Of a DNA stretch of 64,000 nt, positions 3,858 through 55,400 are shown piece by piece (the stretch's first letter is position 1; each line of letters begins with the position of its first letter). The stretch is from Bedellia somnulentella (Eukaryota; Arthropoda; Insecta; Lepidoptera; Bedelliidae): assembly GCA_963576735.1 (NCBI GenBank), contig OY755175.1, forward strand, positions 6,402,401 to 6,466,400. Reading direction: 5' to 3'. The notes beneath the pieces were generated by a model that saw only the letters and a program-made list of their open reading frames with translations, did no database searches and was not told the origin of the DNA. The position numbers and the translations under genes are program-made.

Positions 3858-4072
3858 TAAAATACATACATACATATACTCACGGCTATAAATCCCTAGA
3901 AGGGGTAGCCAGAGCTAAGGAATTAAAAATTCCTCAGCCACTTATGGAAAATTGAGTGGGGAAAAAATGGTTAAATAAAGGTTGTTGGTGATGGGTCTCC
4001 AACCGCATCGCCCAAAAAAGTTAGTCGCCTCTTACGTCCACCCACCGGAAGAAATGGGGTAGTGCTATTCAA
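3858..4072 (-). repeat. SINE-A copy
   Basis: An antisense copy of the dominant short retroposon. The (TATG)n tail, read as CATACATACATATACTCACGG, comes first. Then come the CCCTAGAAGGGG hairpin, the GAGTGGGG box, GGGTCTCCAACCGCATCGCCC and the CACCCACCGGAAGAAATGGGGTAG head. About 25 bp around the CCCCAATACC motif are missing. Confidence 0.85.
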
Positions 4073-4316
4073 TCTAATATAGGGGCCTGAAAATGCGGCG
4101 AAATGGTTGCAGTAAAAGATGCTACGGCAGAATCAGCTTGAGCGCGACTTCCTCTGATTTTTTAAACAGAACAGAACACGACGCCAACGGAATGTAATTT
4201 TTGGCCTACTTTATTCTATTGAACCCAATTTTTCCCAAGGGTTTCGCAAAAACGGAACTCTTATAGTTTCGTAATGTCTATCTGTCCGTGTTTCACATCG
4301 ATATGTTCCAGCACTC

Positions 4317-27709: not shown

Positions 27710-30700
27710 ATGGAATTTAAAAAGAATGTTCGTAATCGAAAACGGAAAGACAGTGCGGAAATTTCAGACACCACAGAGGATTTTTTCAATAATAACGAAA
27801 AAAAACTCAACTGTTTACTATCGGATTCAAAACAGGTAATATAACATTCAGATATTCCAATCCATAAGTTGTCCTTTCGTGTCCTACTTTAAGAAATTAA
27901 TTAACTAATTAGTATTTATAGTTTTATTCACCGTAGTATTAATTTACGTTTATATCTTAATATGCTCTAGTGCAATTATTATAATAAAAAATATTTTTGT
28001 TTCAGAAAGATGACAAAAAACCTGCAGTAAATACTAAGACAAATGATTCATCAAAATGCTCAGCAACTTATCAAAATCCTTTTAACTCACTTAAAATCAA
28101 TATTGAAATTGATTTGACCTTTATTATATTGCTGGTCATGTCCTTATGCACTAGGTTTTACAATTTGGAAGAACCTAAACACATAGTGTAAGTACTTATG
28201 ATAATATATAGTGTATTAAACATCATGTAACACATCCGCATATCACATCATCAACCAACTTACAAAGTGGCTGAGGAATTTATCTTTCTTAATTTCTCCG
28301 TATCTCTTTTTGGAATTTATAGCCATTGGTATACATACATACATACATATACTCACGGCTATAAATCCCTAGAAGGGGGAGCCAGAGCTAAGGAATTGGA
28401 AATTCCTCAGCCACTTTCGGAAAGTTGTGTCCGGAAGAGATAAAGGTTGTTGGTTATGGGTCTAGTCTTGCGCATTATAGTTCGCGACCGGGAGCACTCT
28501 TTATAGTAGTTCCCTACTATAGAGAGATCGCCTGAAGTGCTTGCATTGATCAACAATTTAATTAAAATAGGTAAAATAAATGAATATAGCTGTTTGTAAA
28601 TAATCAACTTATCTTTGAAATTTGTATCTGGTACATATTAAATTGTGTTTATCTATTTACAAGTTATGGGAAAACCTGGTATGTTCTTATACCCACTTTA
28701 AAATAAATTTAGACATATTCTTATCATTTTATCCTCCTGCTATACATATACATACATAGTGTCGAAAAAATGCATGCATTTTGCTTTCTTTCTATCATTT
28801 TTCTGTGTGAAATGTATCCACAAAAACTATGTGTTCTTTTGGTTGCCAATGCAATGAAATATTTGTATGTTATAAATGATAATAATCTAAAACAAAAACA
28901 ATTACGCTTTAACAATACTAGATGGGTCTCTCGTTTCGTCATCAAATGCCTCTTATATGCTGATGATCAAGTGTTACTTGCATCGTCGGTTGAAGAGTTG
29001 CAAGAGATGATGAATATTGCATGCGCGTTATGTGCGTCGTTTGAAAGAAAAGGAATGAGAGTGAATGTGGATAAAACCAAAACCATGGTTTTCGAGAGAG
29101 AGGAGAATATGACTGAATGCGTGATTGAGATCAATGGTATGAAAGTGGAACAAGTGAAAGAGTTCGTATATCTGGGAAGTTTGTTTACTAGGGATGGAAA
29201 GTGTGATGAAGACATTGAAAGAAGAGTAAAAAAGGGTAATGCGGTAAATGGAGCACTGGATAGTCTCATGTCTAGTCAATCGGTGTCCGGAAAGGCCCGA
29301 ATGGCTGTGCATGATGCTGTCCTTGTTCCTACGCTTATGTATGGCAGTGAATGTTGGGTGTGGCAGAAGAAGCATGAAAGCAGAGTGAATGCAGTAGAAA
29401 TGAGATCCCTCAGAAAAGTTTGTAATGTAAGGTTATGTGATCGTGTGAGGAATGATGTGATTCGTGAAAGGTGTGGTGTAAAAGATGATATTGTAAGAAA
29501 GATAGAAAAAGGAATGTTGAGATGGTTTGGGCACATAGAGAGGATGGATGACAGTAAAGTGGTGAAAGAGATATATAGAGCCAATGTGGAAGGTAATGTT
29601 AGTAGAGGACGACCTCGGAGGACACATTTAGATCAAATAGAAAATGTGCTCAAAAAGGCAGGTGTCCGAAGTACGAAGAATAAAAGAGCATGTATGAAAA
29701 GATTGATGGATGTGAATGAAGCTAGAGAGGTTTGCCAGGATCGTACAAAGTGGCGATCGATAGTCTCTGCCTACCCCAATGGGAACTAACGGCGTGAGAA
29801 TATGTATGTATGTATGTATGTTATTACGCTTTATTTAATTGAAATGTACATGATAAACACAATAAAACAAATTAACTAAAAGTAAAAAATAACAATATAC
29901 CTACCTTATATTTCAATTGACAAACCAAATAAACATCTATAAAACGTATTTACCTATTGACAACAATTTTTAACTAACGAACGATCAAACTAACGAACTA
30001 AAAATCGATGGGTCTGCGAACTAGTTCGCGCAGTTCGTTTATAAGATTGCTCTTCCGACCTAGTTCGTTCGCGAACTATACAAGACTAGATGGGTCTCCA
30101 ACCGCATCGCTCAAAAATCCCTTAATAGCCCCATACCGTGAGTCGCCTCTTACGTACACCCACCGGAAGAAATGGGGTAGTGCTATTCTAAGCCGACACT
30201 ACACAGCTGGTCATTGGTATAATACTAGTATTATCTACATATACAATACTAGTGAACTGCCGCAGCTTAAATATCTGAAGTTTTTTTAATCACTGGTCAT
30301 ACCTTCTACAACTTAGAATGACGACATATAGCACACCTAAATAGTGTAGCTTTCTGCTTATGAAAATTTTACCATTATTGGTTTAGTACTTCCATAGTTT
30401 ACCCCTTACACACAAACAATCAAAGATTATCTCTTTATAATATTAGTATATCTATACTTATATTATAAATAGATAATTAATATTTATATTCAATTTATTT
30501 TAACTTACACTATGGCTCAGTCAACCATTTTACCTTCTATTTGCTTAGCATATAAATACCCCATTTTTTCTGGTTGGCATATGAGGTGACTAAGGTCTTG
30601 ATAAGTGACATCAACACATAATGCCCCCTTGAGAAATGACTCAGGAGTATATCTTATATAAACTTTTTACTTTATAGATTTGATGAATTGCACTATGGAC

Positions 30701-33700
30701 GTTATGTCTCACTGTACACCAAGGGTATCTTCTTTTTTGACACACATCCACCCCTCGGCAAGCAGCTGCTGTACCTAGCTGGTCAATTTGGAGGCTATGA
30801 TGGAAACTTCACCTTTGACCGGATTGGATCTCCATACAGTGACAAAGTGCCCATCAAGGCTCTGAGATTTGTTCCTGCTCTAGCTGGAAGCTTACTTGTT
30901 CCCTTGGCATATAAATTAATGTTGGCATTATCAGTATCCCAACCAGTGGCAGTTTTAGCCAGTTTACTTATACTGTTTGGTAAGTTATATAATTTTATTA
31001 TTTATGCTTAATAAAGCATACTACATAAATATAATAAGGGGTAGGCCGAGATTTAGAATTAAACATTCCTTACCCACTTTTGGACGTTGATGGGGGAGAG
31101 ATTGAACAGTAAAGGATGCTTGGTGATGAGTTTTGAGCCATAGCACCCAATAGTAATTTAAATATCTCCAAAACAAAATCAACTATTTGTGCTTTGTTTT
31201 AGTTTGGCTAAGGATCATTATGCCTGTCAAAGGTTTGTTAGTTTGTGGAGCTATAAGCTCCTCACAGCCTATATTTGTCCCCACCAAGGGGCTCGAGCCT
31301 ACCCTATATAGGGCTATAAGCTCATTACACTATATTTTAAAATTAATATACTTATATCCCTTTTTTGTATTGATTTGCTGTTGAAAATAATAAATTGCAT
31401 ATTAAAATCTTTTTAAAATAGGTGCATGAATATTAAACCAGAAAAGAACTTCAGTGGTTAGAAACAGTTACATCCGTACAATTTTATACAGTAGAACCCG
31501 TTTAATACGATCACGCTTAATACAATTTCTCGCATAATACGCCACTTTATGCTGTGTAGTGTCGGCTTAGAATATCACTACCCCATTTCTTCCGGTGGGT
31601 GTACGTAAGAGGCGACTAACGGTATTGGGGCTTTTTAAGGGAATTTTGGGCGATGCGGTTGGAGACCCATCACCAACAACCTTTATTTTTACCATCTTTT
31701 CCCCACGCAACTTCCAAAAGTGGCTGAGGGATTCCTAATTCCTTAGCTCTGGCTACCCCTTCTAGGGATTTATAGCCGTGAGTATATGTATGTATGTTTA
31801 TGCCAGTCCCTGCAACTTGAAACATCTTTTCATACATTCGTATATTCGATCGTCTTCCTGTTTAATACGCCCCTGCCCGATCGTCATTTGTTGACTTGTC
31901 GCGCGTAATAGTGCATCATTTATTTGTTACAATATGACTACAATTAAGCGAAAGCCATTGTCAGTTCAAAAAAATTTTAAATATTGAAAGTTTCGATAAA
32001 AAGTCACAAACAACGAATCAAGCTCAATAAGCTGCGGAGCTTCACTTACCTGTTTTTACGTTACGTACCATTTTAAAGAATAGAGAAGGAATTAAAGAAA
32101 GATTTAGATTGGGAGGTGTGCAGAATAAAAAGCAAATGGTAGGAAAGTTTGATAATTTGAAAAAGTATTGGTGGAATGGCTTCATCAAGCACGAGCTTCA
32201 AAACTGCCCATAAGTGGCCCCATTTTATTCAATAAAGCGTCTAAGGCATTATCTGCTAGATTTATAACGATATGTTGCTTCTTTGAAGTAAAGACGCACT
32301 GCAAAACTTTTATTATGTTGAAATTCTTTAATTGCTAATGCATTAAAAAAAACCTTTCTGTCGAACCAAAATAACTGATTATTTTAAATAATGTATTGAA
32401 TGTAAAAAAATGTAGTACATTCGTTTTATTTTCCCTATCCCGCATAATACGATTTCTCGCTTAAGACGCGTTTTTGGTGGGGTCCCTGGGAAATCGTCTT
32501 AAGCGGGTTATACTGTACAATAGAAAGATCAATTAAAATTATTCAGTATTCTTATACAAATAATTCAGTATATTGTTAAAACAATTCCAGAAAACAGTTT
32601 CCTAGTCCAATCCCGCTTCATGCTGCTGGAGTGCATCCAGATGTGTTTCGGTCTGCTGGGCATGGTGTGCGCGGTGCACGGCGCTCGCAGCGGCGGCGTG
32701 CGCGCGCTCGGCTGGCTGCTCGGCTCGGCGCTCGCGGCTGGGGCTTGCTTCTCGTAAGCATTCACTTTACATACTATGTTGATATCGAAGTGACATGCAT
32801 TGGCCATCAATTCTCGAAATGGCAGTCACATATAGTTTGGAGTTTTTTATTTGCACTGTATAGGTGCGTTTTGTTGCATGATTTTAAAAGTAATGCTGCG
32901 TTAAATATATTTAATAAAAAAACACTTCAAATCAAATATGTCTCAATAAACAAAATAAATGTTGAAAGTCATTTCATTTATCTAATCTAAATACTATAAT
33001 AATATAAATACAGATAAATACTAACTGTATTTCGAGGTATACTTTTAACATACGTAGTACTGTGAATTTAATGATAAGATGCCATTACATTACATGTTTA
33101 TTATTATCATCTTTTCCCCAATCAACTTCCAAAAGTGGCTGAGGAATTTATCATTCCAAAGCTCTGGCTACCCCGTTAAGGGATTTATAGCCGTGAGTAT
33201 GTGTATGTATGTATGTCATTACAATTTAATCTTACTGACTACATCAATAATTTTAAATTACATCAGAGTACCCCTTAAAAATTTACACTTTACAGTAAAG
33301 AATTTTTGATCCTAATTTGCCATACAAAATTCAACATACGACTCATTTTTGTTATCTAGTGTTCAGTTCAGAGTACCCACTTTTTGGTTTCTTGGTTAGT
33401 TTTGTAAAAGTCTACTAAAAGATTTGGGTGGTTTTGAGCGATACAGCTAGACACTTATCACTCTTCCTTTTACAAAGATCCCCTTTTCTTCTTTTAAGTA
33501 TGGCTGTCGAATCATAAAGCATTGCGGAAAAAGGTCGTCAAAATTATTAAAATTAGTTATGCCAACTCATACAGCGTTATATTGGTCTGAAACTCTACCA
33601 CATTGTGATACAACCATCGAATGTACTTTTTTGTTAAACTGCATTACTATTTATGTAAAAAAAAACTTATTACGATTCTAAGAACAAAATAGACTTCTTA

Positions 33701-36700
33701 TTAATTTAGATTCAGTCTGTTTAGAGCCAACGTACACATTTAAACCGAGTTTCAGTACATAAGCTAACTATACGTGCCTGTTCAATAGCATCAGTTATTA
33801 TACCTGGCTTAACGGTAAGACGGGTTTTTTGTCTTACTTACTTATACTCACGGCTATAAATCCCTAGAAGGGGTAAGAGCTAAGGAATTAGAAATTACTC
33901 AGCCACTTTTGGAAAGTTTAGTGGGGTAAAGATGGTGAAATAAAGGTTGTTGGTGATGGGTCTGCAACAGGATCGCCCAAAAATACCTTAAAGGCCCCAA
34001 TACAGTTAGTCGCCTCTTACGTACACCCACCGGAAGAAATGGGGTAGTGTTATTCTAAGCCGGCACTGCGCAGCAAACTATACGTGCCTTTTCTATAGCA
34101 TCAGTTACCTGGCTTAACGGTAAGACGGTTTTTTTTGTCCGCAGCGTAAAATACTCAGGCATATACACACTCTGGTGCACCATGCTGGTATGGCGCTACC
34201 GCCGCGGCTGGGGCCGTCCCCTACTGCTAGCACTGCTGGCCGCGGCGGTGTACGGCGCGGCGCTGTCGCTGCACCTGCTGGCGCTGCCCCGCGCCGGCCC
34301 GCACGACAGCGTCATGACCAGCGCGTTCCAGGCCTGTCTGGAAGGTGGCCTGGCTTCCATCACGAGGGGACAGCCCACGCATGTGGCGCATGGCTCGCAG
34401 ATTACGTTGCGGTGAGATACAGTTTCTAGTGTTAGATATATTTACCTATGGTGGATGGATGGATACGGTAAGTACAGGTATGTAGGCTCGCAGATTGCGT
34501 TGCGGTGAGATACGACCTTGTGGATATATCAAACAATTTGTTTGCAGGCGTTAAATGTTGGTGCTGGACCCGGCCCTCCTAATTAAGAATCAAACCAATA
34601 AAAAAAATTAAAGTTTGGTAAAACCTCTTATGTACAATTCCACCACCAACCCGTGCAGCTGCTACTTCCACTATGTCCGTCCCACTTGTATGTAATTACT
34701 GCGGAGAACGCACCCTCCAATATTTAGTGCCTAAACTATTTAATGAACACGCTCAAATAGTGAAACAAAAATTAACAAACTCCAAGCTTAAATGTCTTCT
34801 TAAGAATCGAGTTGTGTCCTTAAGTTACCAAACTTGAGGATATAATTCTAGGAAGATCGATAAAGGTTAAATAGGTATATCTCAGAAGTTAATCGCTAGT
34901 TTTTAAGAAGCAACTGTTATTGTTATAGGTAGGTATATAAAACGTTAGTGCGCGCTGCTGCGCCGTATGCTGTAATTAGTAATAAGTAGTGGCTGGTCTA
35001 CAGCTCGGCCGCGGGTCGAGTGGTGGGGGTCGAAGGACGTCTCCCCGCGATCGTGCTGTGGATCAGCCATTGCAATTTACTTTTTTTGATTAACACTCCA
35101 TGTTTCTTATATCCGCCAGCAAACTACTATGTAGTTTGGCGGAATTACTGTAAACAAATTTTGTATGTTATTAAAACGAAATAAAGCATTTAAAAAAAAA
35201 AAACCTTTGTCACACTTTCATATTATCCTTTACCATTATCTCATTATTACTACTCATGATTTAATTAACCCCTCAAAGGAACACCGTTAAAAAAGTTTAA
35301 ATTAACATTTCCACTAAATAATTCATCGATCTCGGCGGCTACATTACAGCATGCAAAAAAGTCTTTATAACTATCACAAATAACGTTTTAAGTGGCGCGC
35401 TCCGGCGGAGGCGACCGGGCGCCTCTCAACCGCTGAAGGGTTAAGAGTGTGCTAGGGCTGGTGGAACAACTTAATTAAGGTCTGAAAAGCCGATGGAAGT
35501 GGGCAACGTAAGATCGGCCGTAGTGGTGACTAGTGGGAGTGGCCTATGTACATCAGTGGTCGTCTATTGGCTGACGATGATGATAGGGCTTCAGTTGATC
35601 TTTATTCATTTACTAGCTGTTGCCCACGACTTCGTACGCGTCAATTTCTGTTAGTATGATCGCGATTAAGAAGTTTTTAAAAGAATATTCTTTAAAGTAC
35701 TTCTGCGTAAAGGATATTTTTAATACACTTTTTAAACTCTCAAACTGAGAGTCAGCCCGTGACCACAGCACCAGTAGGTGTGCCAAAACGTCTGGCAATT
35801 AATCATATCACGTAAGTGATATAAAAATATTTCGTTGATTAATACCGATTATTATGTATAGTGATATTTTTAGTTTAATTTTCCTGTAGCAGAAGAGTGT
35901 ACGTAATTCAATTATTTCGATATAATAAGGTAAACTAACCGAATGCTTTAGTAAACAAAAACCTAAACTAATAAGAATAATTATGTAAATGACACCTACT
36001 TACATTATCGACATCAAAACATAAAAACCGGCCAAGTGCGAGTCGGATCGCGCACTAAGGGTTCCGTACTATCATATATATAGAAAATCCCGTTTGTGTG
36101 AAAATCATGGGAGCCAAATTAGGTAAGTAATTTGATTTATGACGTTTAAAAATAGAACTACTGGCTAGATCTCATTCAAACCAATTTTCGTTAGTAGTTT
36201 GTATAGTAATACACATCATATATTTTTTTCAGTATTATCATGCCCATATTTTAGAAGTTACGGGGGGGGGACACACATTTTAGCACTTTGAAAAAGTCTC
36301 TCGCGCAAACTATTCAGTTTTGAAAAAAATGATATAAGAAACCTCAACATCATTTTCAAATACCTTTTGATAGATACCCCACACGTATAGGTTTGATGAA
36401 AAAAAAAAATTTGAGTTTCAGTTCTATGTATGGGGAACCCTAAAAATTTTGGTTTTTTTTTCAGATTTTATTTTAAAATCTTAATGCGGTTTACAGAATA
36501 CATCTACGCACCAATTTCCAATAATGTAGTTCTTATAGTTTCGGAATAAACTGGCTGTGACATACGGACGGACGGACGGACGGACGGACAGACAGACAGA
36601 CATGACGAATCTATAAGGGTCCCGTTTTTGCCATTTGGCTACGGAACCCTAAAAAGGGATAATTATTGTGAAAATATTATAAACAAAATACTATCCTTAA

Positions 36701-39700
36701 AACAAACAATATTATTTAGAAAACTACTGCAGAAATAAAGTATATTGAGAAAGTATTACACGATGAAATATAGCCGAAACAACAATAGAAAACTACTACA
36801 AAATAAAAATGTATTACGAAAGTATTATTACACGTTGATATATCGCAAAAACGAATTTAAAAAAATCAGTACGCTGAACTCAACCGTTTCGTAGGGAGCC
36901 ATGGTACACGGGCAGGTATTTTCTTGCGGAGTTATTTTTAAATTGTATTATCATTACATACATACATACATATACTCACGGCTATAAATCCCTTGAAGGG
37001 GTAGCCAGAGCTAGGGAATGAGACATTCCTCAGCCACCTTTGGAAGTTGCGTGGGGAAAAGATGGTGAAATAAAGGTTGTTGGTGATGGGTCTGCAACCG
37101 CATCGCCCAAAAATCCCTTAAAAGCCCCAATACCGTTAGTCGCCTCTTACGTACACCCACCGGAAGAAATGGGGTAGTGCTATTCTAAGCCGACACTACA
37201 CAGCAAATCATCTAAGATGTTAATTGAAATTAATTAATGTAAAGGACAATTTAGTTGACAATGGAATAATTTTAATCAACAACACATTAACTTGGATTGG
37301 ATAAGGAACTCTTTAGCAAATAATTGGCAATAATGCATTGGGTTCGAACAAATTTGAGTACCATAAAAAAAGTTATATTGAGTTAATCTTTAAAGATAGA
37401 AATATAAGTTTGTGGAATTTTTTTTAGATCATTTAAAGAGGCATAATTCTTAGACACATATTTTTGGGTAACTTGAACAGTTTAAGCAGCGCACACAACG
37501 GAAGCCTTCAAATATGAAAAAATCCCCCGTTTTATCAACGTTTATTACTGATGCTTTGCTCCTATTTGTTGCAGCGTGATCATATATAGCCTAAAGCCTT
37601 CCTCGATAAATGGACTATCCAACACAAAAAGTTTTTTTTTCAGATTCGAACCAGTAGTTCTTGAGATCATAGCGTTCAAACAAACAAACCCTTCTGCTTT
37701 ATAATATTAATATAGATATAGATAATGAAGTAAATAGCATTAGTACGTGAGTGTGTACATGAATTTCATTTAACTCTAGTTCAGTTTTAAATGTTGTGTA
37801 ATCTTAAGGTTTGGTCAAAGCTGAAAATCCGAGCTATCTGCTTATAGTGGAATCGAACCCTTAACCATTTTGTTTATTGAATTTCCGTGTCTCCAACTTT
37901 TGGAATAAGCAAAAGACAATAGTTTTATTTTTGCATAGACCGAATTTTTCATCATTTCGACTTTCGTTTTGCTCATATATGGTGTTTGTTAGTATTTCCA
38001 AAATATTTATACGAGAAAACGATTTTTTTTTCATTAATGTTACTATAAAAGTGTTTATGGTACAGTCACAGCCACGGGCGCGCGTGCTGGCTGCACTCGC
38101 ACGCGCACGTGTACCCGGTGCGGCTGGCGGACGGCCGCGGCTCCAGCCACCAGCAGCAGGTCACGTGCTACAGCTTCAAGGATGTTAATAATTGGTAATG
38201 TGCTTACTGCCATATCTGTAGCTACCTAACCCTATAAAAAGAAATGTAATTAAATAAACTCAATCCAATGATATTTAAAATACATACTTTTAAAGTCTTT
38301 ATTTAATATAGATTCTACCATCAGGATCTAAATTTTTTTTTGTTGAAAATGAAATTAATTATTAAAAACTAACAAAGCGAGATTTTGGTCCACAATACAA
38401 TCTGTGGCACCCAGATATTTTAACTTTAATCCCAAGCTTTACATCTCCATAGAACATACAAGAATGTACCGTAGCTAATCAGAAGAATTATAATGACCAG
38501 GTGGATAGTAAAGCTGCCGGACCGCGACAGCCTGGCAGTGGACGTGCCTCCGCGCGTGATCCGCCACGGAGACGTCGTGCAGCTCCTACACGGGATCTCT
38601 AGTAGAGCGCTCAACTCGCACGACGTGGCCGCGCCCGCCTCGCCGCACTCGCAGGTACTACTAACATACATACATACTAACATACATACATATACTCACG
38701 GAGACGTCGTGCAGCTCCTACACGGGATCTCTAGTAGAGCGCTCAACTCGCACGACGTGGCCGCGCCCGCCTCGCCGCACTCGCAGGTACTACTAACATA
38801 CATACATACTAACATACATACATATACTCACGGAGACGTCGTGCAGCTCCTACACGGGATCTCTAGTAGAGCGCTCAACTCGCACGACGTGGCCGCGCCC
38901 GCCTCGCCGCACTCGCAGGTACTACTAACATACATACATACTAACATACATACATATACTCACGGAGACGTCGTGCAGCTCCTACACGGGATCTCTAGTA
39001 GAGCGCTCAACTCGCACGACGTGGCCGCGCCCGCCTCGCCGCACTCGCAGGTACTACTAACATACATACATACTAACATACATACATATACTCACGGAGA
39101 CGTCGTGCAGCTCCTACACGGGATCTCTAGTAGAGCGCTCAACTCGCACGACGTGGCCGCGCCTGCCTCGCCGCACTCGCAGGTACTACTAACATACATA
39201 CATACTAACATACATACATATACTCACGGAGACGTCGTGCAGCTCCTACACGGGATCTCTAGTAGAGCGCTCAACTCGCACGACGTGGCCGCGCCCGCCT
39301 CGCCGCACTCGCAGGTACTACTAACATACATACATACTAACATACATACATATACTCACGGAGACGTCGTGCAGCTCCTACACGGGATCTCTAGTAGAGC
39401 GCTCAACTCGCACGACGTGGCCGCGCCCGCCTCGCCGCACTCGCAGGTACTACTAACATACATACATACTAACATACATACATATACTCACGGAGACGTC
39501 GTGCAGCTCCTACACGGGATCTCTAGTAGAGCGCTCAACTCGCACGACGTGGCCGCGCCCGCCTCGCCGCACTCGCAGGTACTACTAACATACATACATA
39601 CTAACATACATACATATACTCACGGAGACGTCGTGCAGCTCCTACACGGGATCTCTAGTAGAGCGCTCAACTCGCACGACGTGGCCGCGCCTGCCTCGCC

Positions 39701-42700
39701 GCACTCGCAGGTACTACTAACATACATACATACTAACATACATACATATACTCACGGAGACGTCGTGCAGCTCCTACACGGGATCTCTAGTAGAGCGCTC
39801 AACTCGCACGACGTGGCCGCGCCCGCCTCGCCGCACTCGCAGGTACTACTAACATACTCACGGGTATAAATCGTTAGAAGCACTTGGAGAGTCTGAATAA
39901 GAAATTCCTCAGTCATTTTTGGAAGTTGAGTAGGGAAAAGATTGTAAATTAAATGTTGTTGTTGGGTGGCATCGCCTAAAAACTTTTTTAAAAGCCCCAA
40001 TATACTTAGTCACCTCTTACGAACACCCACCAGAAGAAATGGGTTAATACTTTTCTGCGATCAAATCTTACTTATTTTAACCCATGTGTTTGGTAGCCAA
40101 CTTGTTCCGCAATTCATATTTTCTTCTTTTTGTAGTTACAGTAGTGGCCTACTATTACACCATAAAATAAATTAATTATATTTCAGGAAGTTTCGTGCTA
40201 CATAGACTACAACGTTTCTATGCCAGCACAAAACCTGTGGCGAGTGGATATTGTAAACCGAGTGAACGACGACGACGCTTGGGAGGGTATCAAGTAAGTT
40301 TTGCTTTTCTCTTAATTCATGCGACATAAAGTTATTAAGAAAAGTTTTGAATGAGGGGTGTGGAACTCGTCGAAAACTCCTCAGTCGGTTGGGGTCAGGG
40401 ACACAGGTTCAAGTACCGTCAGATAATGAGCAGCATCGCTTTCTGAATTTGCGCTGGAACCGACTCACTAAAGGAATCCCCAAGTTGGTCGCGAGGCTGG
40501 TTAGAATTAACCCGTTTGCGGACAAAACATGCATCACGACTATTTCGGTCGCAATCGTACCCCACGTGGGGGTGATCTCATGAACCATATCAAGATCGTT
40601 TCGACGCTGCTCGGCTCGTCATGTGGCTAAATAGTGACATCCACTAGAAATATCATCGACTGCGACCGATCCCATACCACGAAATCAGTTAAATTCACTA
40701 GCATTGTCCTGTCCGCGATAACGGTTGTTTTCTAGGATTGGCTCAGGCGGGTATTTGTATTACGCTATCCTCTAATGCAACAGTCCGTACTTGAAAGCCT
40801 GTTGATGTAAAGGTTGGCTGCTTGGTTGTGTCTGTGCAAGTCCTAAGCATTAGCAAAAGTTGAAGAACCGGAAACAACTGGCCTAAGTGACTCTCCGGGA
40901 TGCACATATGCTCGAAAAATGACCGATTACTGTCCATTAGGAAGTATTTAGATACAATACGATCGGTTTCCTCAAAGAGGTCCCCAAAACGCAGCTTATG
41001 CAGGGAGGCTTTCCGGTCCACGAAGGGCTCGTGAAGTACCTTGTTAAATCACCCGTGCAGCTCCTTCTGTTTTCATACAAACCCCCGATCAGATTTGCTA
41101 AGTTCCTCCGGGTTCGCAAATCCTGTGAGGCTAACGATAAGGAGGTCAGTCCTTTATCACTAGAGACTACCTACCCTCGAATGCTATCATCTCACACATA
41201 AAAAATACTGATGTTGTATATCTCTAGGTTATACATGTACTTAGAACTCATGAGGCCTTGTCCACCACACTTTCACGGGATATTCAATCTCATAACCAAT
41301 GATCTCGGATGATTCATCTGATGAGAGTTAATCGTCATGCAGACTCGTCTGTCCAGCGAAATACGAACACGCCAAATAGGTACATCTGCACAGGCCTGAC
41401 AAGTAACTATTATATTCAGGCGTTCATAATACACCTCGCAAACACGCTGTTTGACATGCAACGACGATGGTATGGTCATGCCCAGATATCTGAATTTTTC
41501 AACCTCGGAGAGTGCCTTTACGCGATAAAAAGAACACATCAAAAAAATATAAATTATGTAGCTTTGTGCCCTCCAACAGCAAAAAATTTTAATAGCGTAA
41601 ATCTTCAGGATAGCCATGCAAAAGAGATGAGGCATGCGTGTTCCGATTACCTAAAACTATAAACCTGTTCTTAAATTCTCCAAGTTATTTGTTATTTTCA
41701 AATTACAATTAAAACATAATAATTATTAAAATTAATATTCCAAGATCGCTGGTCCGTCTAATCCATATCCCCACGGGCGCGGCGCTGCGCTACAGTGGCC
41801 GTCAGTTACCTGCATGGGGGTTCCATCAACACGAGGTGGTGGCAGACAAGGTCCTCACTCATCAGGACACTGTCTGGAATGTCGAGGAACATCGGTATAC
41901 TAAAGGTAACGTAACTTAAGAAAGAATGAAAATTTTCGCTGTTGCAATACTCACACTTGATGGGACAATAATTTACTAATAACTAAAAGCCTGCCCATGT
42001 CGCGGTTCCACCAGCACGAGGTGGTGGCCGACCTTATTGGCGTTGTGCCTCTTACCTTTTATTAATTTTCAAAACATTTTAGGTTCCTTTGCAATTGAAA
42101 ATTGCAATCTTTTATCATGCTGAAAACATCTCCTGATGATATTGTGAAGCCGTGCTTTCAAACAATTTATGTAATTAACCTTCCCTAGAATATGGTAGAA
42201 TGTTAAGGTAATCGGCGTCTATCCAATGTTCCGTGTTGTTAAAAAGACTATATTTTACATAACATAAACATAAACGTTCACGCCGTTTATCCCCGAAGGG
42301 GTTGGCAGAGGTACCAATACTCCTGAACTCACATTGCAAGCGCCATCTAGTTTCCAGAGAAGGTACCCACGTTTTGCTTAGACAGTGTACTCACGTGATA
42401 GGGGGCAGGCCTATCGCCGTTTTGTACGAATACACTGTCACATGACTAAGTACAACTCAGCCATGTGGGTTTCCTCACGATGTTTTCCCTCACCGTTAGC
42501 AACCATGATAAATTAACCACACATATGACTTTTGGAAAAGACAAATTGGTGTAGGCCCGTCCCAGGATTGGAACTCACGCCCTTCTGTTTTTCGGGCGGG
42601 TGTTCTACCCACTGGACTATCATGTCGCCTATATTTTCTAAGGTAGTTTTTCTACTGTATCAATACGCGACTACATAAACACTCAAGTCATACTATTAAA

Positions 42701-44115
42701 CACCCATTTCCCCCCAGCCGAAGAACGCCGCGAGCGAGAACGCGAACTGGTCTCAGCGGAGATGATCCCGACCACCACCACCAAGCTATCGTTCTGGGCG
42801 CGGCTGTGGGAGCTGCAGTACAAGATGGCGACCCACGCCAGCGACGCGCCGCTCGGACACATGTTCGCCAGCGAGCCCATCGACTGGCCTTTACTTGCGA
42901 GGTCTATCGCCTATTGGTTGTCGCCTAATTCTAACGTAAGTTGCAGCTGATCAGATTCATGTTGTTCATGTTCATGCCATATATGAATTATGATGAACGT
43001 CACGAGACATTAATGTCGTCTGATATTCAGAGTAAACCTATTTGCTTGGATATTTTTGTACTGTTTATATTATTCAAATTTTACTTAACCAGGATAAATG
43101 TAATTCGTGTGACACAATAAACATTATTGAGAAGTTTGACTAAATGATCAGATCTCTAGACCAAGTTTGTGAAAAACCCCTTTGGCGCATTTTCGAAATC
43201 AACCTTATAGCATTGCACGGATAGTATATTTTTTCAAATATCTTTTATTTCTCCAGTGACCACTCACCTCTTGGCCAATGTTACTTCTGAAGGTTGTAGG
43301 TGTCTATACATTAAATATATTTTTAATTATTTGAGTGGTTACGGACCGTATTTATTACAAACAAACTAATCTTTCCTCTTTATAATAAGTAAAGATATGT
43401 ATTTATCTTTATTTAGTAGTATTTGTAGTATATGTACTTTATTTATGTATTATTCTTAACCATGTTTTCATTTAACAGTAAGCTCTGAATTATTTTCGTG
43501 CTTACATAGACTAAATCAATTAATAACTTCTTTTTGTATTTTAGACCATTATTTGCTTATATTTCAGTTTTTTTTGTACATCTATTTCAGAATAGTCTAA
43601 CACTTAACATTTATTCTGTGCAGGCACAAGTTCATCTAATCGGCAACTTGTTGACGTGGTACACGGCCACCGCCGCAGTATTTATATATGCCTTCCTGTT
43701 AGTGGTGTATGCGCTGCGACAGCGACGAGCCATCTACGACCTGTCCGACCAACAGTTCGCAAACTTCTACCAAGCAGGGGTCGTCCTCTTCGTCGGCTAC
43801 TGGCTACACTACCTACCCTACTTCTTCGTCGACCGAACACTCTTCCTCCACCACTATCTACCCGCCTATCTCTTCAAAATACTCGTCTTAGCATACGTCA
43901 TCGATCACATCTACTGCATCATACAGCGACACGAAAAACTCCGTCCTTTAGCCAATTTATACATTTTAAGTGTTGCTGTGTGGTTCGCCTATGTGGTTAT
44001 CACATTCCACAAATTCAGTGTCCTCAATTACGGAACTACTGACTTGACTGAAAACGACCTCATGAATCTCAGATGGAAAGACACTTGGGATTTTATTTTA
44101 CATAAGAAATCCTAA
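27710..44115 (+). CDS. POMT1: protein O-mannosyltransferase 1 (rotated abdomen orthologue)
   Basis: Multi-pass ER enzyme that, with POMT2, transfers mannose from dolichyl-phosphate mannose to Ser/Thr, for example on dystroglycan. Eleven exons: 27710..27835, 28006..28187, 30678..30979, 32591..32753, 34145..34411, 38066..38194, 38501..38654, 40187..40293, 41745..41905, 42718..42935, 43624..44115. All are GT-AG and frame-consistent, giving 766 residues. After a lysine-rich N-terminus and a first membrane segment comes [11 protein letters not shown] (catalytic D105/E106), then DTHPPLGK. The MIR repeats span [31 protein letters not shown] and [39 protein letters not shown] and the end LRWKDTW point to POMT1 rather than POMT2. 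Odd: the end of exon 7 with its donor is repeated in tandem ten times (38565-39848). I used the first donor, but any of the ten keeps frame. Exons 4-7 are GC-rich. Confidence 0.96.
28200..28332 (+). repeat. SINE-A variant, second copy
   Basis: Matches 26775-26905 including the atypical 5' part ATATAGTGTATTAAACATCA. It directly abuts the next SINE-A. Confidence 0.6.
28335..28480 (-). repeat. SINE-A 3' half
   Basis: Antisense tail (CATACATACATATACTCACG), hairpin CCCTAGAAGGGGGAGCC and CTCAGCCACTTTCGG. It breaks off after GTTGGTTATGGGTCTAG. Confidence 0.8.
28912..29822 (+). mobile_element. RTE-like LINE, 5'-truncated, young insertion
   Basis: Flanked by an 11-bp duplication ATTACGCTTTA (28901-28911 and 29823-29833). 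The frame to the stop at 29787-29789 has no break. It begins in the reverse transcriptase palm ([20 protein letters not shown] with the YADD catalytic motif), then [64 protein letters not shown] and [11 protein letters not shown]. It ends with a short 3' UTR: CTGCCTACCCCAATGGGAAC, TAACGGCGTGAGAATATG and (TATG)n. Endonuclease and fingers are missing. RTE is my reading from the tail type and the C-terminal pattern; the exact clade needs a tree. Confidence 0.85.
30086..30208 (-). repeat. SINE-A 5' half
   Basis: Antisense head only: GATGGGTCTCCAACCGCATC, AAAAATCCCTTAATAGCCCC, GAGTCGCCTCTTACGTACAC, GGAAGAAATGGGGTAGTGC. Just before it, 29990-30085 repeats GTTCG/CGAAC palindromic motifs of unknown origin. 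Confidence 0.8.
31022..31150 (-). repeat. SINE-A relic
   Basis: Weak antisense match: GGGGTAGGCCGAGATTTAGA, CCACTTTTGGACGTTGATGG, GGTGATGAGTTTTGAGCC. Confidence 0.55.
31489..32515 (+). mobile_element. Tigger/pogo-type transposon relic
   Basis: Ends CAGTAGAACCCGTTTAATAC and the complement of CAGTATAACCCGCTTAAGAC, flanked by TA. From 31934 a degraded transposase N-terminus is readable: [15 protein letters not shown], and later, in shifted frames, [20 protein letters not shown] and [10 protein letters not shown]. This is the CENP-B-type DNA-binding region of pogo transposases. The catalytic part is gone. A SINE-A sits inside at 31553-31796. Located in POMT1 intron 3. Confidence 0.8.
31553..31796 (+). 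repeat. SINE-A, full length, 7-bp target duplication
   Basis: Complete 244-bp sense copy inside the Tigger relic, flanked by TTTATGC (31546-31552 and 31797-31803). A good reference copy for the family. Confidence 0.92.
33098..33216 (+). repeat. SINE-A 3' half
   Basis: ATCTTTTCCCCAATCAACTT, AAAAGTGGCTGAGGAATTT, CTGGCTACCCCGTTAAGGG, ATAGCCGTGAGTATGTG, tail. Confidence 0.8.
33835..34075 (-). repeat. SINE-A copy 70 bp before POMT1 exon 5
   Basis: Antisense full copy from ACTTATACTCACGGCTATAA to CTAAGCCGGCACTGCGCAGC. The flanks ACTATACGTGCC, TAGCATCAGTTA and GCTTAACGGTAAGACGG occur on both sides (33766-33823 and 34077-34130). The insertion is therefore accompanied by a roughly 60-bp duplication of host sequence. 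Confidence 0.85.
34484..34512 (+). pseudogene. duplicate of POMT1 exon 5 end with its 5' splice site
   Basis: GGCTCGCAGATT, one changed base, GCGTTGCGGTGAGATAC repeats 34392-34420 with 28 of 29 bases equal. It includes the GTGAGA donor, 92 bp further into the intron. Confidence 0.75.
34571..35203 (+). mobile_element. CR1/Jockey-like LINE 3' end with poly(A)
   Basis: A coding remnant reads [20 protein letters not shown], then [20 protein letters not shown] and stop. A 3' UTR follows with ATATCCGCCAGCAAACTACT, AATAAAGCATTT and a 12-A tail. 5'-truncated, in POMT1 intron 5. Confidence 0.65.
35612..35790. repeat. lepidopteran repeat relic
   Basis: Begins ACTAGCTGTTGCCCACGACT, followed by TCGTACGCGTCAATTT, a start shared by many lepidopteran interspersed repeats. 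The rest is diverged. Confidence 0.45.
36028..36652. repeat. widespread lepidopteran interspersed repeat
   Basis: Opens ACCGGCCAAGTGCGAGTCGG, contains GGGTTCCGTACTA and a GACG/GACA tetranucleotide tract (36567-36601), and closes CGTTTTTGCCATTTGG, then CTACGGAACCCTAAA. A familiar lepidopteran repeat with complementary ends (GGGTTCCGTA and TACGGAACCC). No coding. Confidence 0.7.
36957..37204 (-). repeat. SINE-A, full length
   Basis: Antisense complete copy, little diverged: CATACATACATATACTCACG, TCCCTTGAAGGGGTAGCC, GGTCTGCAACCGCATCGCCC, CCGACACTACACAGC. Confidence 0.9.
38565..39848 (+). repeat. ten-copy 132-bp tandem array built from POMT1 exon 7 and its donor
   Basis: Units start at 38571, 38703, 38835, 38967, 39099, 39231, 39363, 39495, 39627 and 39759 (position of GACGTCGTGC). 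Each unit holds about 84 bases of exon ([20 protein letters not shown] to PASPHSQ), the donor GTACTACT, and about 45 bases ending TACATACATATACTCACGG, which is the antisense end of a SINE-A. The copies are almost identical; the only difference I saw is C to T at 39164 and 39692 (units 5 and 9). The period is 44 codons and no stop occurs, so one frame runs through from exon 7. Only the first unit has an acceptor. Confidence 0.95.
39849..40062 (-). repeat. SINE-A remainder after the exon array
   Basis: ACATACTCACGGGTATAAAT, TTGGAAGTTGAGTAGGGAAA, AAAGCCCCAATATACTTAGT, CACCAGAAGAAATGGG. Antisense copy whose tail end appears to have seeded the array spacer. Confidence 0.75.
40350..41640 (-). pseudogene. 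decayed reverse-transcriptase-like sequence
   Basis: Minus-strand open stretches are unusually long for this intron. [11 protein letters not shown] (about 41515) and [20 protein letters not shown] (about 41430) resemble the post-palm region of Jockey/R1-type LINEs. Further pieces (about 40745-41120) are unassigned. No intact frame. Confidence 0.4.
41993..42036 (+). pseudogene. diverged duplicate of a POMT1 exon 9 fragment
   Basis: GGTTCCACCAGCACGAGGTG, GTGGCCGAC repeats exon bases 41819-41847 (GGTTCCATCAACACGAGGTG, GTGGCAGAC) with three substitutions in 29. It lies about 90 bases into the next intron. Confidence 0.55.
42257..42628 (-). repeat. SINE-B, full length, 9-bp target duplication
   Basis: Flanked by CTATATTTT (42248-42256 and 42629-42637). 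The minus-strand head GCGACATGATAGTCCAGTGG, GTAGAACACCC and GAGTTCCAATCCTGG is tRNA-like (A box, then B box). The body is AATTTGTCTTTTCC, TGGTTGCTAACGGTGAGGG, CACATGGCTGAGTTGTAC and GTGTATTCGTACAAAACGG. The 3' end is CTCTGCCAACCCCTTCGGGG, ATAAACGGCGTGAACGTTTA, TG. Reference copy for the family. Confidence 0.9.
42936..43623. other. POMT1 intron 10, nothing recognised
   Basis: AT-rich intron with no repeat family, RNA gene or coding remnant that I can identify. Confidence 0.5.
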
Positions 44116-44174
44116 TTTGTATAAACTTAAGACATAAATTAAGGAATTATTTATTTTTATACATTTTTATATGA

Positions 44175-44180
44175 AATAAA
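44175..44180 (+). terminator. POMT1 polyadenylation signal
   Basis: AATAAA, followed by a second overlapping AATAAA, 60 bases after the POMT1 stop. Confidence 0.75.
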
Positions 44181-44209
44181 TAAAACAATGATATGAAATT
44201 GAAAATTCT

Positions 44210-44215
44210 TTTATT
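44210..44215 (-). terminator. PSMB7 polyadenylation signal
   Basis: AATAAA on the minus strand 23 bases after the PSMB7 stop and only about 30 bases from the opposing POMT1 signal. Confidence 0.7.
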
Positions 44216-44237
44216 GATAAAAACCCTATTTCATTAA

Positions 44238-47200
44238 TCACCACGAGCGGCCACTTGATGCAGGTTCCACGTCCATCGGCTGTGGTCGCTGCACGGGCCT
44301 TACTGCCATAGATTCTACTTCTAGAGGTATCTCTCGTTGTCTCAACACAGCTGTTGTGCCTAAGTTGTATCTGTAAGATCCTTGCTTTTTACCCTGTAAA
44401 TAAAATTATAAGAAAACATAAATTTTAGGATATCTATTGGACTTTTTAAGTGATTTTTGAGCAATGAGGTTGGAGACCCAATTTATTCCTTTTCTTTAAA
44501 AGTGGCTGAGGAATTTAAATACTGAATCCTTTCTCACTGCCTCTTTTTGGAATTTATTGCCATGAGAATAATTAGGTAGGTATTTCCGAAGTATTGGGTT
44601 AATATTGGTAGTTCAGTACAAAACGGCGATAGGCCTGCCCCCTATCACGTGAGTACACTGTCTAAGCAAAAACGTGGGTACCTTCTCTGGAAACTAGATG
44701 GCGCTTGCCATGTGAGTTCAGAAGTATTGGTACCTCTGCCAACCCCTTCGGGGATAAACGGCGTGAACGTTTATGTATGTTATGTTTTATGTTCAGTAAG
44801 AACACGGCCTCAGCCTCAGGTGTAATTAATTAAGTTGCTCCTAAATTATCTGTCAGCCAAACCCTATTAGGTATACATCTTAGAGGTCTTTGGAGTATTT
44901 TGAGGTTCTACATGTCAGGATTTGAAAGTTGGGGCCATATTTGAGCAAATTTATATATATATATATATTATACTATAGAATAATTGAGTAAATGAGTCCC
45001 ATGGAGTTGAAGATCATGAACGGCAATGGGCAGGGCAACTTGTACACAGAACTGGTGACCCTTGGGCTCATAGGCTTTGGAGTGGCAGTCACATGCCATA
45101 TAACACAACGGGGCATGCCATGCACAAAGTAAACCTACATCTCAGTGAAGGTTGGACAAAGGTTACAAAATGATATTGACTGATAATGATTAATATATTA
45201 CCTTGATATTAGCTTCTTCATATGTTCTGAGGTATTTAGCAGGTCCACTGTTTGAAATTACACAAATATCAACATTGGAACCAGATCCCAGATCATTGAA
45301 GATACCAGCTGCAATAGCATCTCTTACTAACTTTTTTCCTTCCTCTTCAGACATGTTTGGCTTCCATCCTGATTCAAAAACTGCCATAGCTGCCAATGAC
45401 CCAGAACCTAGAAAAAAGCCTCTTTAGTAAAATAAATTTATTGATAATGTAAATAATAATGTGAAACAAAAATCATACCCATAGTAGCATAAGGTAATTT
45501 ATCAACAGATCCATGAGGATAAATGCAATAGATGTGTGGTCCCGATTGATCTACACCTCCCAAGACCAGTGCAGCTCCAATGTAACCTTGGTAGCGGAAC
45601 AGCATTCTCTTCAGTAGAGTAGCGGCAGTGGCGACCGGTACAGTGCGGCCAGTGTGAAGACGTTGCAATTCTAGCTGAGATGACACGGACTGAGTTGTCA
45701 TCTCTGTGTCTGCGGCTGTACCAGCACCGCAACAGTACATGTTGCCAGCTAAGTAATGGATTTTCTCACAATTCTTATCAGACACTACAGTACCCTCAGT
45801 AGCACGTGTGTCAGCACCAAGGATTACTCCATCTGCATAAATAATGCCAACAATGGTGGTACCAGTTTTAGTTGCCTTTGGAGCAAGAAAACCTTTTTGT
45901 TCAAGAAAGGCATTTCTGAAAATAAAAAGATCAAGTTTGTATTTTGTAAGATTATGCTAGCAGGATAATTCCTGCTAGCATAATCTCATGACTTTAATTT
46001 AAACATATAATATATTCCACACAAATTTCAGCTCAATTGCATTTTTCCTATGTATAAAAATAATATAGTTCAATTTTTTACCAAGATGGTTAAGTATAAA
46101 TAACTAAGAGTTTTTTCTAAAACAAGCAGGCTGCTCCTGCAGCACACTCCGTTTCACTCTTACATGGTGGTAAGAGGACTAATTAACATAATGGTAAACC
46201 CAAGGTACTATCAACGACAGTCACTCATTACCAATTTCAAACTATTATCCCTTGCAGCCAGCTAAAACCAGATGCGCCGCCCACTTTTAACTAATACAAT
46301 AGATGTCCTTTAACAATTTTTTTTGACTTGTTAACGCATTTCTGTTCAGATCATTTGTTTGCTCCCAGACTTTTGAGCAGCTCCTATTTTAAAAACTTTG
46401 GTATAATCTTAAACAGATGTCCATTATTATTTGGCCGAATGTCTTGGAATCATCCAAGCTGCCCAGGCTATAAAAGCAAGAAAAATCTCAGAAATGACCA
46501 TAAAAATCATATCGGACAGCACTTCTGTCCTGCAAGCCCTCAATCGAAGCGAATACACTTCAGGTCTAATCCTGGAATGTCACCAAGCCTTAGAAGAAGT
46601 GGCGCAGGACAACAATATTATCCTGCAATGGATAAAAGGCCATAGTGGGTCCTTAGGCAACGATGCGGCTGATGAGCTGGCTAGAGGGGGATTGGCTATG
46701 TCTCTGTACGGACCCGAACCCATAATACCTCTTCCATTCAACCAGTTACATTCAACGTGGCTAAGGGAACGCACACAAACCCTAGCTAACGCATGTTGGC
46801 AAGGCACGTCTGGCTGCAGACAGTCTAAAGAGGCAATGCCAACTCTTAGGAAAAATCTGACCAGATATGCCTTACGCCTTAGCAGACCAAATCTACGAAC
46901 TCTAGTGGGTGTTGTCACAGGGCACTATGCCCTAAACAAACACTTCCACACTCTAGGCATCACCGACAGCCCTCTGTGCCGTGCGTGCATGGAGGCAGAC
47001 GAAACGGTCACTCATGTGCTCCAGGAATGCAACGGAGTAACCGATATCCGAAATAACACCATCGGATCCAAAAAGTCGCTACCAGAGGCAATGGCTGACC
47101 TGGATAAGCTTTTGTCCTTCTGGTCTGAATTAGGTTGGGAAACTTAAACGGCCAAATGGCCCACGTACAATGGCCCACCTCGTAGCTGGGTTAAGTGCGG

Positions 47201-52160: not shown

Positions 52161-52490
52161 GTAGACAGGAGTACAATACAACACGTCAATGAGTATGTGT
52201 CATAACAAGAAAATTGAGCTAAAATCCTCCTCATGATTATTAGGTTACGGTTTATTTTTGTCTGACTAAAATTTTTCTAATTGTCAAAATACTCCCACCA
52301 ATCCCAAGCAGCCGAATATTCAATTTTGCAATGCAAATCCAAATCAAATCAAAATCGAGCGAAGTCGACTTGGTGTAGTCTGAAATATTTTGATAAAAAA
52401 AAAACTTAATATGTGGACGAATATGTTTTGAATTAGCTTACGTATTTCGTGTAAAATTTGACAGTATTTAGTGGCTATAGACATTCCAAA

Positions 52491-55400
52491 ATGTTACTTA
52501 AAAGTGTTCATATTTTTGCATTTTATTTTATGTCATTTGTAGTCTTATCTTGCGCTGGAAGAGATTTTTACCAAATTCTCGGGGTATCCCGATCTGCAAA
52601 TACCAATGAAATTAAAAAAGCTTATAGAAAATTAGCCAAAGCGCTGCATCCAGATAAAAATCAGGATGATCCTGATGCCTCTCAGAAGTTCCAAGATCTT
52701 GGAGCCGCGTACGAAGCTTTGTCGGATCCTGAAAAGCGTGAATTATATGATCGGTGCGGTGAAGAATGTCTCAAAAAAGATGGTATGATGAATAACGCCG
52801 ATCCTTTTGCCAGCTTTTTTGGAGATTTTGGTTTCCATTTTGGTGGAGAGTCTCAACAGCATGAAACTCCACGAGGCGCCGACATCGTAATGGAGCTCTC
52901 TGTGTCATTAGAAGAACTTTATAATGGAAATTTTGTTGAAGTAAGTGTCTTAGAGGAATAACTGTCAGAATATATTATCATTGTGGCCTATAAATAAATG
53001 GGAACCCTATAGCAATAATAAGGAATAGTAAACAATTCTTAGAAAATGTGTGCAGTCCCAAATCTAAAGGGAATTTAGCATTAATAATGTTTTTACTTGT
53101 TAATGAAAGGTATCAAATGGCATCACCAATAATGGAGTGTAGTTATGAGATAAATAACAACAATCCATGATAACTCAATGGGTAAGAAATTCTGTCCATC
53201 AGGTAGACAGGTGTGGGTTCAAATACTGGGTTGGGCCTAATTGTCTTAAGACATTTGTGTGGTTAATTTATCTTGGTTGTTAATGGTCATGGATAACATT
53301 GCAAGAAAACCCACATGGCTAGGTTGTACTAAGTCACATGACAGTGTATTCATACAAAATGGCCATTGGCCTGCCCCCTACCTTGTGTTTACACTGTCCA
53401 AGCAAAATGTGAGTACCCTAAACACCAGGTGATGATATCATGTGATATCACTGCCAACCTGTTAGGGAATATTCGGCATAAACATTTGATTCTTATGATA
53501 GAAACAGAGAAGAGAATTTTCCAAATGTACATTTTTTTTGTTATTTATGTAGTCCACCCTATATGTCTTCCCAAGGAGTGACAGGACCTACCCAAACCAT
53601 CACCTTTTATTATTACCAGTAGTACCAATGAAAATTATGTGTCATTTTTACCACTGGTGGTATAGACTGTATCATCTTTACCACCAGGGGAACTTCTTGG
53701 TGGTAATATATTTCTGCTTACATTTATACGATCTCAACATAGTTTAAAGTTATTAAAAATGGGGGTTCATTTGATGTTTTCATTCAATGAATTTTAAGTT
53801 TCAATTGAAAAAGGGCACAGAAAAATATTTGGTATACTGAAAAATTTATCCATTTTTGCAGATAACACGAAATAAGCCCGTCGTCAAGCCAGCATCTGGA
53901 ACTCGGAAATGCAATTGTAGACAAGAGATGGTCACAAGAAATCTTGGTCCTGGTCGTTTCCAAATGATGCAACAGACAGTTTGTGATGAGTGCCCTAATG
54001 TAAAACTTGTGAATGAAGAAAGGTTGCTAGAAATTGAGGTACACTATTTCCTTAGATAGATAGATTAGTAGTTTGGTTTCCGCACATAGCTCCCTAATGG
54101 AACTTTTTTACGTGGGCCCTGGCCGTCTCACTCAATCCACCCTAACTCTGTCCAAAATCTTTCGAGTTGTCCTAAGTCTTTTAAAAAGTTTTTTGTACTA
54201 CCTGTTCTTGTCCTATCTTTTGAGTACGGGCTGTTTAGAGCCTGGCACTCAAACATGACATGATTTACTGTCTCCTCGGCCTCCATGCATGCTCTGCACA
54301 GAGGGCATTATACCGATGTTGTGAAAGTGTTTGTTCAATGAGCAGTGACCAGTGATGATTCCTGTTATCATTCTTAGGCTTCTCCTGTTTAGTTGAAGTA
54401 GTCGTCTTGTTAGTCTTTTATCTATGTCCGGCATCACTTCTTTTGACTGGCGGCATTCAGTTATTTCACGCCAGAGAGAGTTGTGTTGTTCTTGTGTGCA
54501 CACTATTTCCTTATTTTCAGCCATGTAGTGCCAGCTTAGAATGTCACTACCCCTTTCTTCCCAAGGGCGTCTTAAGGGGCAACTAAGGGTATAGGGCTTT
54601 TTTAAGTGATTTTTGGGCAATGCGGTTTGAGACCCATCACCAAGAACCTTTATTTTACAATCTTTTCCCCACTTATCTTCCAAAGTGGCTGAGGAATTTT
54701 GTATTCTGTAGCTCTGGCTACCCCTTTTTGGGCTTTATGGCCATAAGTATATGTATGTGTGTACTATTTCTTTCTGTCAAGTTATGATTTAAATAATACC
54801 GGGGTTATGATTTAAATAATTTCCCATGCCTAAAATTTATTTAAAGGAGATGTTTTACAGTGCCAGCATACATTCAAACTTTTTGTTAGTTATTAATATA
54901 CAGTAATATTCACAGCTATGTATATAAATAAATTACTCAGTCACTTTTGGACGTTAGTGGGGAAAAGATAAAAAAATATATATCTGGTGATGGGGCTCCA
55001 ACTGCATCGCCCAAAATCTTTAGAAGCACCAAAACCCTTAGTTGCCTGTTGATTGCCTTATGATGTTTAAGTTATTGACTTATTGTTGGGTTCCAGTCTT
55101 TGCTTCCAAAAGAAAAACTTACCTTATCTTATTATGAAAGTGGATTTGATTATTCTGAAACTATAGGTGTCTTGTCTACTTATAGCATTAAAAATCACAA
55201 CACATCTAACATTACCAAAAACAAAATAACTAATCAGAATAACTAATGTTGCTATTTTTTGTAGGTAGAGGTTGGTGCTCCTGATGGACACAAATCCACC
55301 TTGCGAGGTGAAGGAGAGCCACATGTCGATGGAGAACCAGGAGATCTGGTGATAGTCTTCCACACGGAGCGGCACCCACAATTTACCAGAAAGGGTGACG

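Follow-up and report, generated by a model that had tools for sequence, protein, structure and literature searches.

What becomes of a gene when the end of one of its coding exons, complete with its 5′ splice site, is present not once but ten times in a row, and how does such a structure arise? We address this question in the moth Bedellia somnulentella, in a stretch of 64,000 nucleotides (nt) of contig OY755175.1 (positions 6,402,401 to 6,466,400 of the forward strand; hereafter the window, whose own coordinates are used throughout), where the last part of exon 7 of POMT1 (rotated abdomen), which encodes the essential sugar-adding enzyme protein O-mannosyltransferase 1, and the start of intron 7 form a tandem array of ten splice donors. 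We consider it probable that this is a young minisatellite-sized array across the end of exon 7, that it is one of several likely independent amplifications, and that its first donor is the one mainly used. Tandem repeats at exon–intron boundaries are of a known kind, since De Grassi and Ciccarelli (2009, PMC2812944) have described internal repeats of this sort in human genes of segmental duplications. The new and unexpected part is their apparent recurrence in moths, and the ladder of donors is of less interest; within the terms searched and the entries listed, the open-access literature contained no mention of such arrays in the POMT1 of Lepidoptera.

A tandem array across the end of POMT1 exon 7

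The argument draws on the following features of the window.

27710..44115, plus strand: POMT1 (rotated abdomen) gene, coding part, 11 exons, modelled from GT/AG borders, one frame, Pfam domains and similarity
27710-27835, 28006-28187, 30678-30979, 32591-32753, 34145-34411, 38066-38194, plus strand: POMT1 exons 1-6
38501-38654, 40187-40293, 41745-41905, 42718-42935, 43624-44115, plus strand: POMT1 exons 7-11
38501..38654, plus strand: exon 7 with the first donor, 154 nt, 68% guanine plus cytosine (GC), its last 90 nt being those of repeat unit 1
38565..39857, plus strand: tandem array, period 132 base pairs (bp), ten copies of the exon part, last spacer short, from Tandem Repeats Finder (TRF) and unit comparison
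38655..39848, plus strand: ten identical 5′ splice sites CAG/GTACTA (slash, exon–intron border)
38654, 38786, 38918, 39050, 39182, 39314, 39446, 39578, 39710, 39842, plus strand: last exon bases of donors 1-10 (38654 + 132k)
38659..39853, plus strand: TACTAAC words, 19 copies, two per full spacer and one in the last
39849..40056, plus strand: old copy in intron 7 resembling a short interspersed element (SINE), from blastn and alignment
40187..40293, plus strand: exon 8 (EVSCYIDYN...), the partner of any donor chosen

TRF delimits the array at 38565-39857, with 9.8 copies of the 132-bp period, 99% matches and 0% indels, and together with a direct comparison of the units it bears out the preliminary description of an exon end, donor and spacer repeated tenfold at this period, although not the end of the array at 39848 given there. 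Each unit joins the last 90 nt of exon 7 to the donor with 42 nt from the start of intron 7, the spacer; the exon-plus-spacer layout first described therefore stands, but with these lengths in place of about 84 exon bases and a 45-bp spacer. The structure is thus one of tandem copies of minisatellite length in which a single unit holds exon, splice site and intron. The sole difference among the nine full units is a C>T change in the fifth and the ninth, at unit offset 71 (counted from 0); it falls in a third codon position and keeps the proline, while unit 10 has an identical exon part and a short spacer that gives way to the SINE-like element. The two units with the common variant lie four units apart, and their sharing it suggests multi-unit duplication steps or conversion.

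The gene that carries the array looks complete. With two 5′ exons added, its joined exons give 767 codons in one frame with a single terminal stop, corresponding to 766 residues for the shortest form, spliced from the first donor, and by arithmetic to 1162 with nine extra blocks. PMT, MIR and PMT_4TMC domains follow one another in that order in the product (Pfam), and a protein search returns similarity over its full length, the closest named relatives being moths and butterflies with identities mostly near 70%, and the best matches lepidopteran POMT1. The gene is on this evidence a POMT1, and the array lies within its MIR region as an exon end and donor ladder, as had been proposed. In a tblastn comparison for which matches were taken from the POMT1 region only, the exon at 34145-34411 is about 16 residues short relative to its relatives after VKYSGIYT; a piece may be absent from our model, or the protein may be truly shorter.

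GCAGGTACTACTAAC occurs once in each unit, ten times in total. The preliminary description held that no unit contains a stop and that all ten donors keep the POMT1 frame from the acceptor at 38501, and translation of all ten choices confirmed this, the modelled protein reading on to its natural stop with each of them. The frame from 38502 remains open past the last donor, and both other frames are stopped in every unit. With a U1-pairing energy of -7.1 kcal/mol, the array donor is the third strongest of eight POMT1 donors tested, and 3.1% of the 908 GT sites in 29001-45000, the array's own ten counted, pair with U1 equally well or better. Because the units are copies sharing one frame, the ten in-frame donors amount to one property copied, with a chance of about 0.12 (1/3 for a length divisible by three, multiplied by 0.37 for a 14-codon spacer free of stops in shuffles); we rejected the idea of ten separate frame coincidences for the same reason. 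The open frame is weaker evidence than it seems at first sight, and it is the repetition itself that is certainly beyond chance. Intron 7 is also the only one of eight POMT1 introns tested whose first 15 codons contain no in-frame stop. The word TACTAAC, which we take to be branch-point-like, has 19 of its 23 plus-strand copies in the window inside the array, with 10 on the minus strand over the whole window.

The flank of the array offers insight into its origin. It has matches at E <= 0.001 to 20 further places in the window (blastn, the array itself excluded), and the SINE-like copy that adjoins the array has 65-74% identity to eight other copies, those being 73-95% identical to each other; the adjoining copy is old. 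The spacer had been described as SINE-derived, and for its later part this holds, the tail consisting of the simple-repeat edge and the CTCACGG of the SINE-like family, but the start of the spacer is the donor followed by ordinary intron. At each unit junction the SINE edge is fused to exon sequence at CACGG, which is common to both sides, and because this junction joins the SINE edge to the exon the array in the window is younger than the SINE. We suggest that the first duplication would have arisen by microhomology after the SINE had landed, and that the array would have grown through slippage or unequal exchange, possibly several units at a time. The SINE-like family is about 220-240 bp long, has an (ACAT)n edge that leads into TATACTCACGG, and is present in both orientations (copies at 3858-4075, 18830-19070, 31560-31800, 33830-34072, 36955-37200 and others).

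Apparent arrays of the same kind in predicted proteins of other Lepidoptera

Three protein searches, which together retrieved 300 proteins, reveal the arrays of other species through predicted proteins alone. Search 1 used the plain protein (120 listed of 1144 matches), search 2 the block region of a two-block form (120 listed of 981) and search 3 five units of the window's frame (120 listed of 139); the last two were aimed at the repeat unit, and counts from them are not frequencies. All 120 listed relatives in search 1 have an ordinary exon 7 junction (116 by pattern, 4 by inspection).

Search 2 yielded a single outlier, a predicted protein of Phthorimaea operculella (P0121) with a score of 203 bits; none of the remaining 119 proteins listed from the 981 matches exceeded 77. 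In the outlier the exon end occurs four times in one frame, at intervals of 44 residues; copies 1-3 are followed by VLLGRPLSQV and the fourth by VGDPLVGRP, where the model ends, without PMT_4TMC. The same model has a second repeated exon end upstream of its exon-7 array, at about residues 376-560, in which VNNWWIVKRPDQ is followed by VRIHLSLSNTRALVLS (KRPDQ, VRIHL); this repeat would fit a CAG/GTAAGA donor read through, at an intron that may lie at another position than in the window. The outlier of search 3 is a predicted protein of Plutella xylostella (P0181) with a score of 114 bits, where the remaining 119 proteins listed from the 139 matches reach no more than 74. This protein reads the same exon end initially in frame and later in a different frame. 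Among 43 periods tried (97-139), only 119 nt fits both frames from one DNA unit, and this period breaks the frame. A unit length divisible by three is accordingly not a constant of these arrays: it holds for the 132 nt of the window and the 44 residues of Phthorimaea, and fails for the 119 nt of Plutella. A third case involves another exon, in that residues 572-667 of a Bicyclus anynana model (P0001) repeat the end of exon 10 once, 51 residues apart and with 3 substitutions in 45; the first copy runs on into VSVTHH, as would be expected from translation through a GTAAGT-like donor, and the model ends at the second donor. POMT1 exon 10 of the window likewise ends in PNSN before gtaagt.

These three proteins are the only ones of the 300 with internal repeats of at least 14 residues, and all are lepidopteran. 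Set against the names, this amounts to 3 of 41 proteins whose names we take to be lepidopteran and none of 259 others, some of them unnamed (Fisher p = 0.0024, a value inflated by the aiming of searches 2 and 3 at the unit and by the close kinship of several of the proteins). Taken by itself, search 1 gives one protein with an internal repeat out of 35 named lepidopteran proteins among the 120 listed. No inserted block was found at the exon 7 junction in the 282 relatives of measurable spacing out of the 300 retrieved; the 18 that the junction pattern left unmeasured are the Phthorimaea and Plutella proteins and 16 fragments or partial models. In a set of 180 proteins the pattern passed over six, namely the Phthorimaea outlier and five that proved normal at the junction on inspection. 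No internal repeat was found in the 16 fragment models, 14 of which run past the same Q into V..., with one copy each, while two have other sequence there. The 14 read like unspliced DNA continued through the GT, and the exon-7 boundary itself looks old.

It thus looks as though the same exon 7 donor has been amplified in three moth lineages, two of them represented by predicted proteins. In the three lineages the exonic part of the repeat begins 90, 96 and 102 nt upstream of the donor, and the periods are 132 nt in the window, 132 in Phthorimaea and 119 in Plutella. Because breakpoints and periods differ and the spacer of the window is tied to a SINE, we favour separate founding at a recurrent site over inheritance as the most likely history. 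With the arrays most likely founded independently, the exon 7 junction would behave as a recurrent amplification site. A fuller version of this idea, which we put forward only tentatively and would not expect to hold in every part, is that lepidopteran POMT1 contains a splice-donor minisatellite hotspot, with repeated amplification of exon ends and their donors in separate moth lineages, exon 7 breaks within about 12 nt of one another, an in-frame ladder that alters the length of the MIR region in some species, and conversion shared with the live exon. Since the live exon end lies in one near-identical array with nine copies that are probably for the most part spliced out, conversion or exchange could carry mutations from intron to exon or back, and changes in intron DNA could in this way reach a conserved enzyme; whether POMT1 grows by whole blocks would depend on splice choice alone. 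If the arrays are independent in several moth families, they would provide a natural, repeatable system for the onset of boundary-crossing tandem duplication, and also for the selection by the cell of one 5′ splice site from many identical ones. They carry a warning for annotation as well, in that at least two public moth POMT1 models appear to read straight through them.

The array can be compared with known systems. The human repeats are, like it, minisatellite-sized, situated at an exon–intron boundary and able to change both splicing and protein repeats, but their units average 30 bp in four copies in recent paralogs, whereas here a 132-bp unit with a whole 5′ splice site is present ten times (PMC2812944). 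In further contrast to them, the same POMT1 donor seems to have been amplified in other moths too. In the RNA-dependent RNA polymerase gene of potato, a tandem genomic duplication over an intron–exon boundary gave rise to a new intron (PMC4974935, which cites Rogers 1989 and Hellsten 2011). That case shares with ours a boundary-crossing tandem duplication that copies splicing signals, but it is a single duplication of a 3′ splice site whose new intron was detected, whereas ours is an array of 5′ splice sites known from DNA alone. Tandem GYNGYN donors (PMC1779574) also place alternative donors side by side, but within one short motif, whereas the window repeats whole exon ends.

Donor choice and the competing explanations

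Which of the ten donors is used should depend on how exon 7 is recognized. The introns that flank it measure 306 nt upstream and, by donor choice, 344-1532 nt downstream, and the exon has 68% GC against 36% in the 100 nt upstream; these intron lengths and this contrast in composition indicate exon definition, for which a rule of about 250 nt intron length has been given in human cells (PMC9225289). In human minigenes with 365-nt introns and two identical competing donors, the upstream donor was used exclusively (Carranza et al. 2022, PMC9225289). Those constructs resemble our locus in that identical donors compete for one downstream acceptor, and differ from it in being designed with two donors spaced by 52 nt and expressed in transfected cells, whereas the insect gene has ten natural donors spaced by 132 nt. 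Under exon definition, donor 1 would dominate with its 154-nt exon and the other nine units would leave with intron 7, and occasional use of a later donor would add in-frame 44-residue blocks. From the minigene result, tempered by the intron-definition rule and the Bicyclus model, dominance of donor 1 with some leakage is what we consider most likely.

Several observations weigh against a young, independently founded array spliced mainly from its first donor. Intron definition favours the intron-proximal donor (Reed and Maniatis, cited in PMC9225289), donor 10 leaves an intron of just 344 nt, and the intron-length rule is a human one whose validity in a moth may be doubted. The Bicyclus model ends at the downstream donor, which, if the model reflects RNA, is contrary to a first-donor prediction. 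Independent founding leaves unexplained why the window and Phthorimaea have an equal 132-nt period and 14-codon spacing; outside the window the arrays are seen as predicted proteins, never as DNA; and the targeting of searches 2 and 3 at the unit deprives their counts of meaning as frequencies.

Among the alternatives, the one that survives best, though we think it unlikely, is a functional isoform ladder, in which splicing at several donors would yield POMT1 forms whose MIR motif 2 contains 0-9 extra blocks of 44 residues. The ten donors are all in frame and comparatively good, the Phthorimaea copies lie in frame 44 residues apart, and the Bicyclus exon-10 model reads through its first donor and ends at its second. 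Because the blocks start at HGD and the last block with exon 8 would restore HGD...EVSCYIDY, the longer forms need not be dead. The open unit, however, is expected by chance at the rate of about 0.12 derived above, upstream donors win in the exon-defined minigenes (PMC9225289), and the blocks would enter at MIR motif 2, where the second residue past the junction aligns with Pmt2 V443, which is paired with the human POMT1 disease change V428D (PMC7759382). An isoform ladder is possible but not the best reading, chiefly because the Plutella period breaks the frame and no ordinary relative of measurable junction carries a block, the spacing being canonical in 282 of 300 and the rest being the two array proteins and the 16 repeat-free fragments or partial models.

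A single ancient array, inherited across moths and homogenised within species while its intron side turned over, would account for the same exon and donor in three lineages and for the 14 codons that separate SP.SQ from HGD in both the window and Phthorimaea, whose spacers both start with VLL. We regard such inheritance as improbable, in view of the exonic breakpoints at 90, 96 and 102 nt, the 119-nt period of Plutella and the SINE edge held in the window's spacer, which places formation of this array after the SINE. A model from Tuta absoluta (P0028), a species that we take to belong to the same family as Phthorimaea, is without a block, but a model spliced from donor 1 would hide an array.

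More doubtful still is a role in RNA processing and not in coding, by which the many U1 sites and TACTAAC words would tune or slow the splicing of intron 7 or the units would come to be separated by new mini-introns, a case of intron gain by tandem duplication. The ten donors and 19 TACTAAC words are in keeping with such a role, as is the candidate GT...AG of 49 nt made by the spacer and the start of the next unit, with TACTAAC about 23 nt before the AG; on our reading, the Plutella model seems to skip one such short stretch. A clear polypyrimidine tract is absent before that AG, however, and 49 nt is very short for an intron.

That the array is an assembly or sequencing artefact with a true copy number of one or few is very improbable, for although the copies are near-identical and units 5 and 9 share their variant four units apart, as in a wrongly stitched repeat, the terminal spacer is distinct, the variant is confined to two units, and gene models of other moths show a like array, one with a different period. 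The reading that we consider most probable is that of a young array at a recurrently amplified exon end, spliced mainly from its first donor.

Structural comparisons and other features of the window

No relative of solved structure was found for the 50-residue product of exon 7, and for the longer POMT1 protein 13 distinct solved sequences were found, which are PMT, MIR or SDF2-like chains. An AlphaFold2 model of one relative (P0002, 30 aligned sequences) has a mean predicted local distance difference test score (pLDDT) of 61.8, with stretches below 50 over much of the MIR region, and was set aside because of these low scores. Pfam matches on the bare frame of the array (PEX6 N1 above its cut-off and two others below theirs) were rejected as repeat artefacts, no stretch being significant alone, and Rfam and ARAGORN scans of the window returned nothing.

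Elsewhere in the window, TRF reports a second tandem duplication at 4744-4979 (117 bp, two copies, 94% matches), in an open stretch that by eye resembles a retroelement, and the translations of long open frames at 28713-29789 and 46413-47147 resemble, again by eye, pieces of reverse transcriptase from elements without long terminal repeats and of RNase H. From their translations, judged by eye, we take the neighbouring genes to be those of DNA topoisomerase I (11552-12886, plus strand), a proteasome beta subunit (45438-45956, minus strand) and a DnaJ-type chaperone (52455-52961, plus strand).

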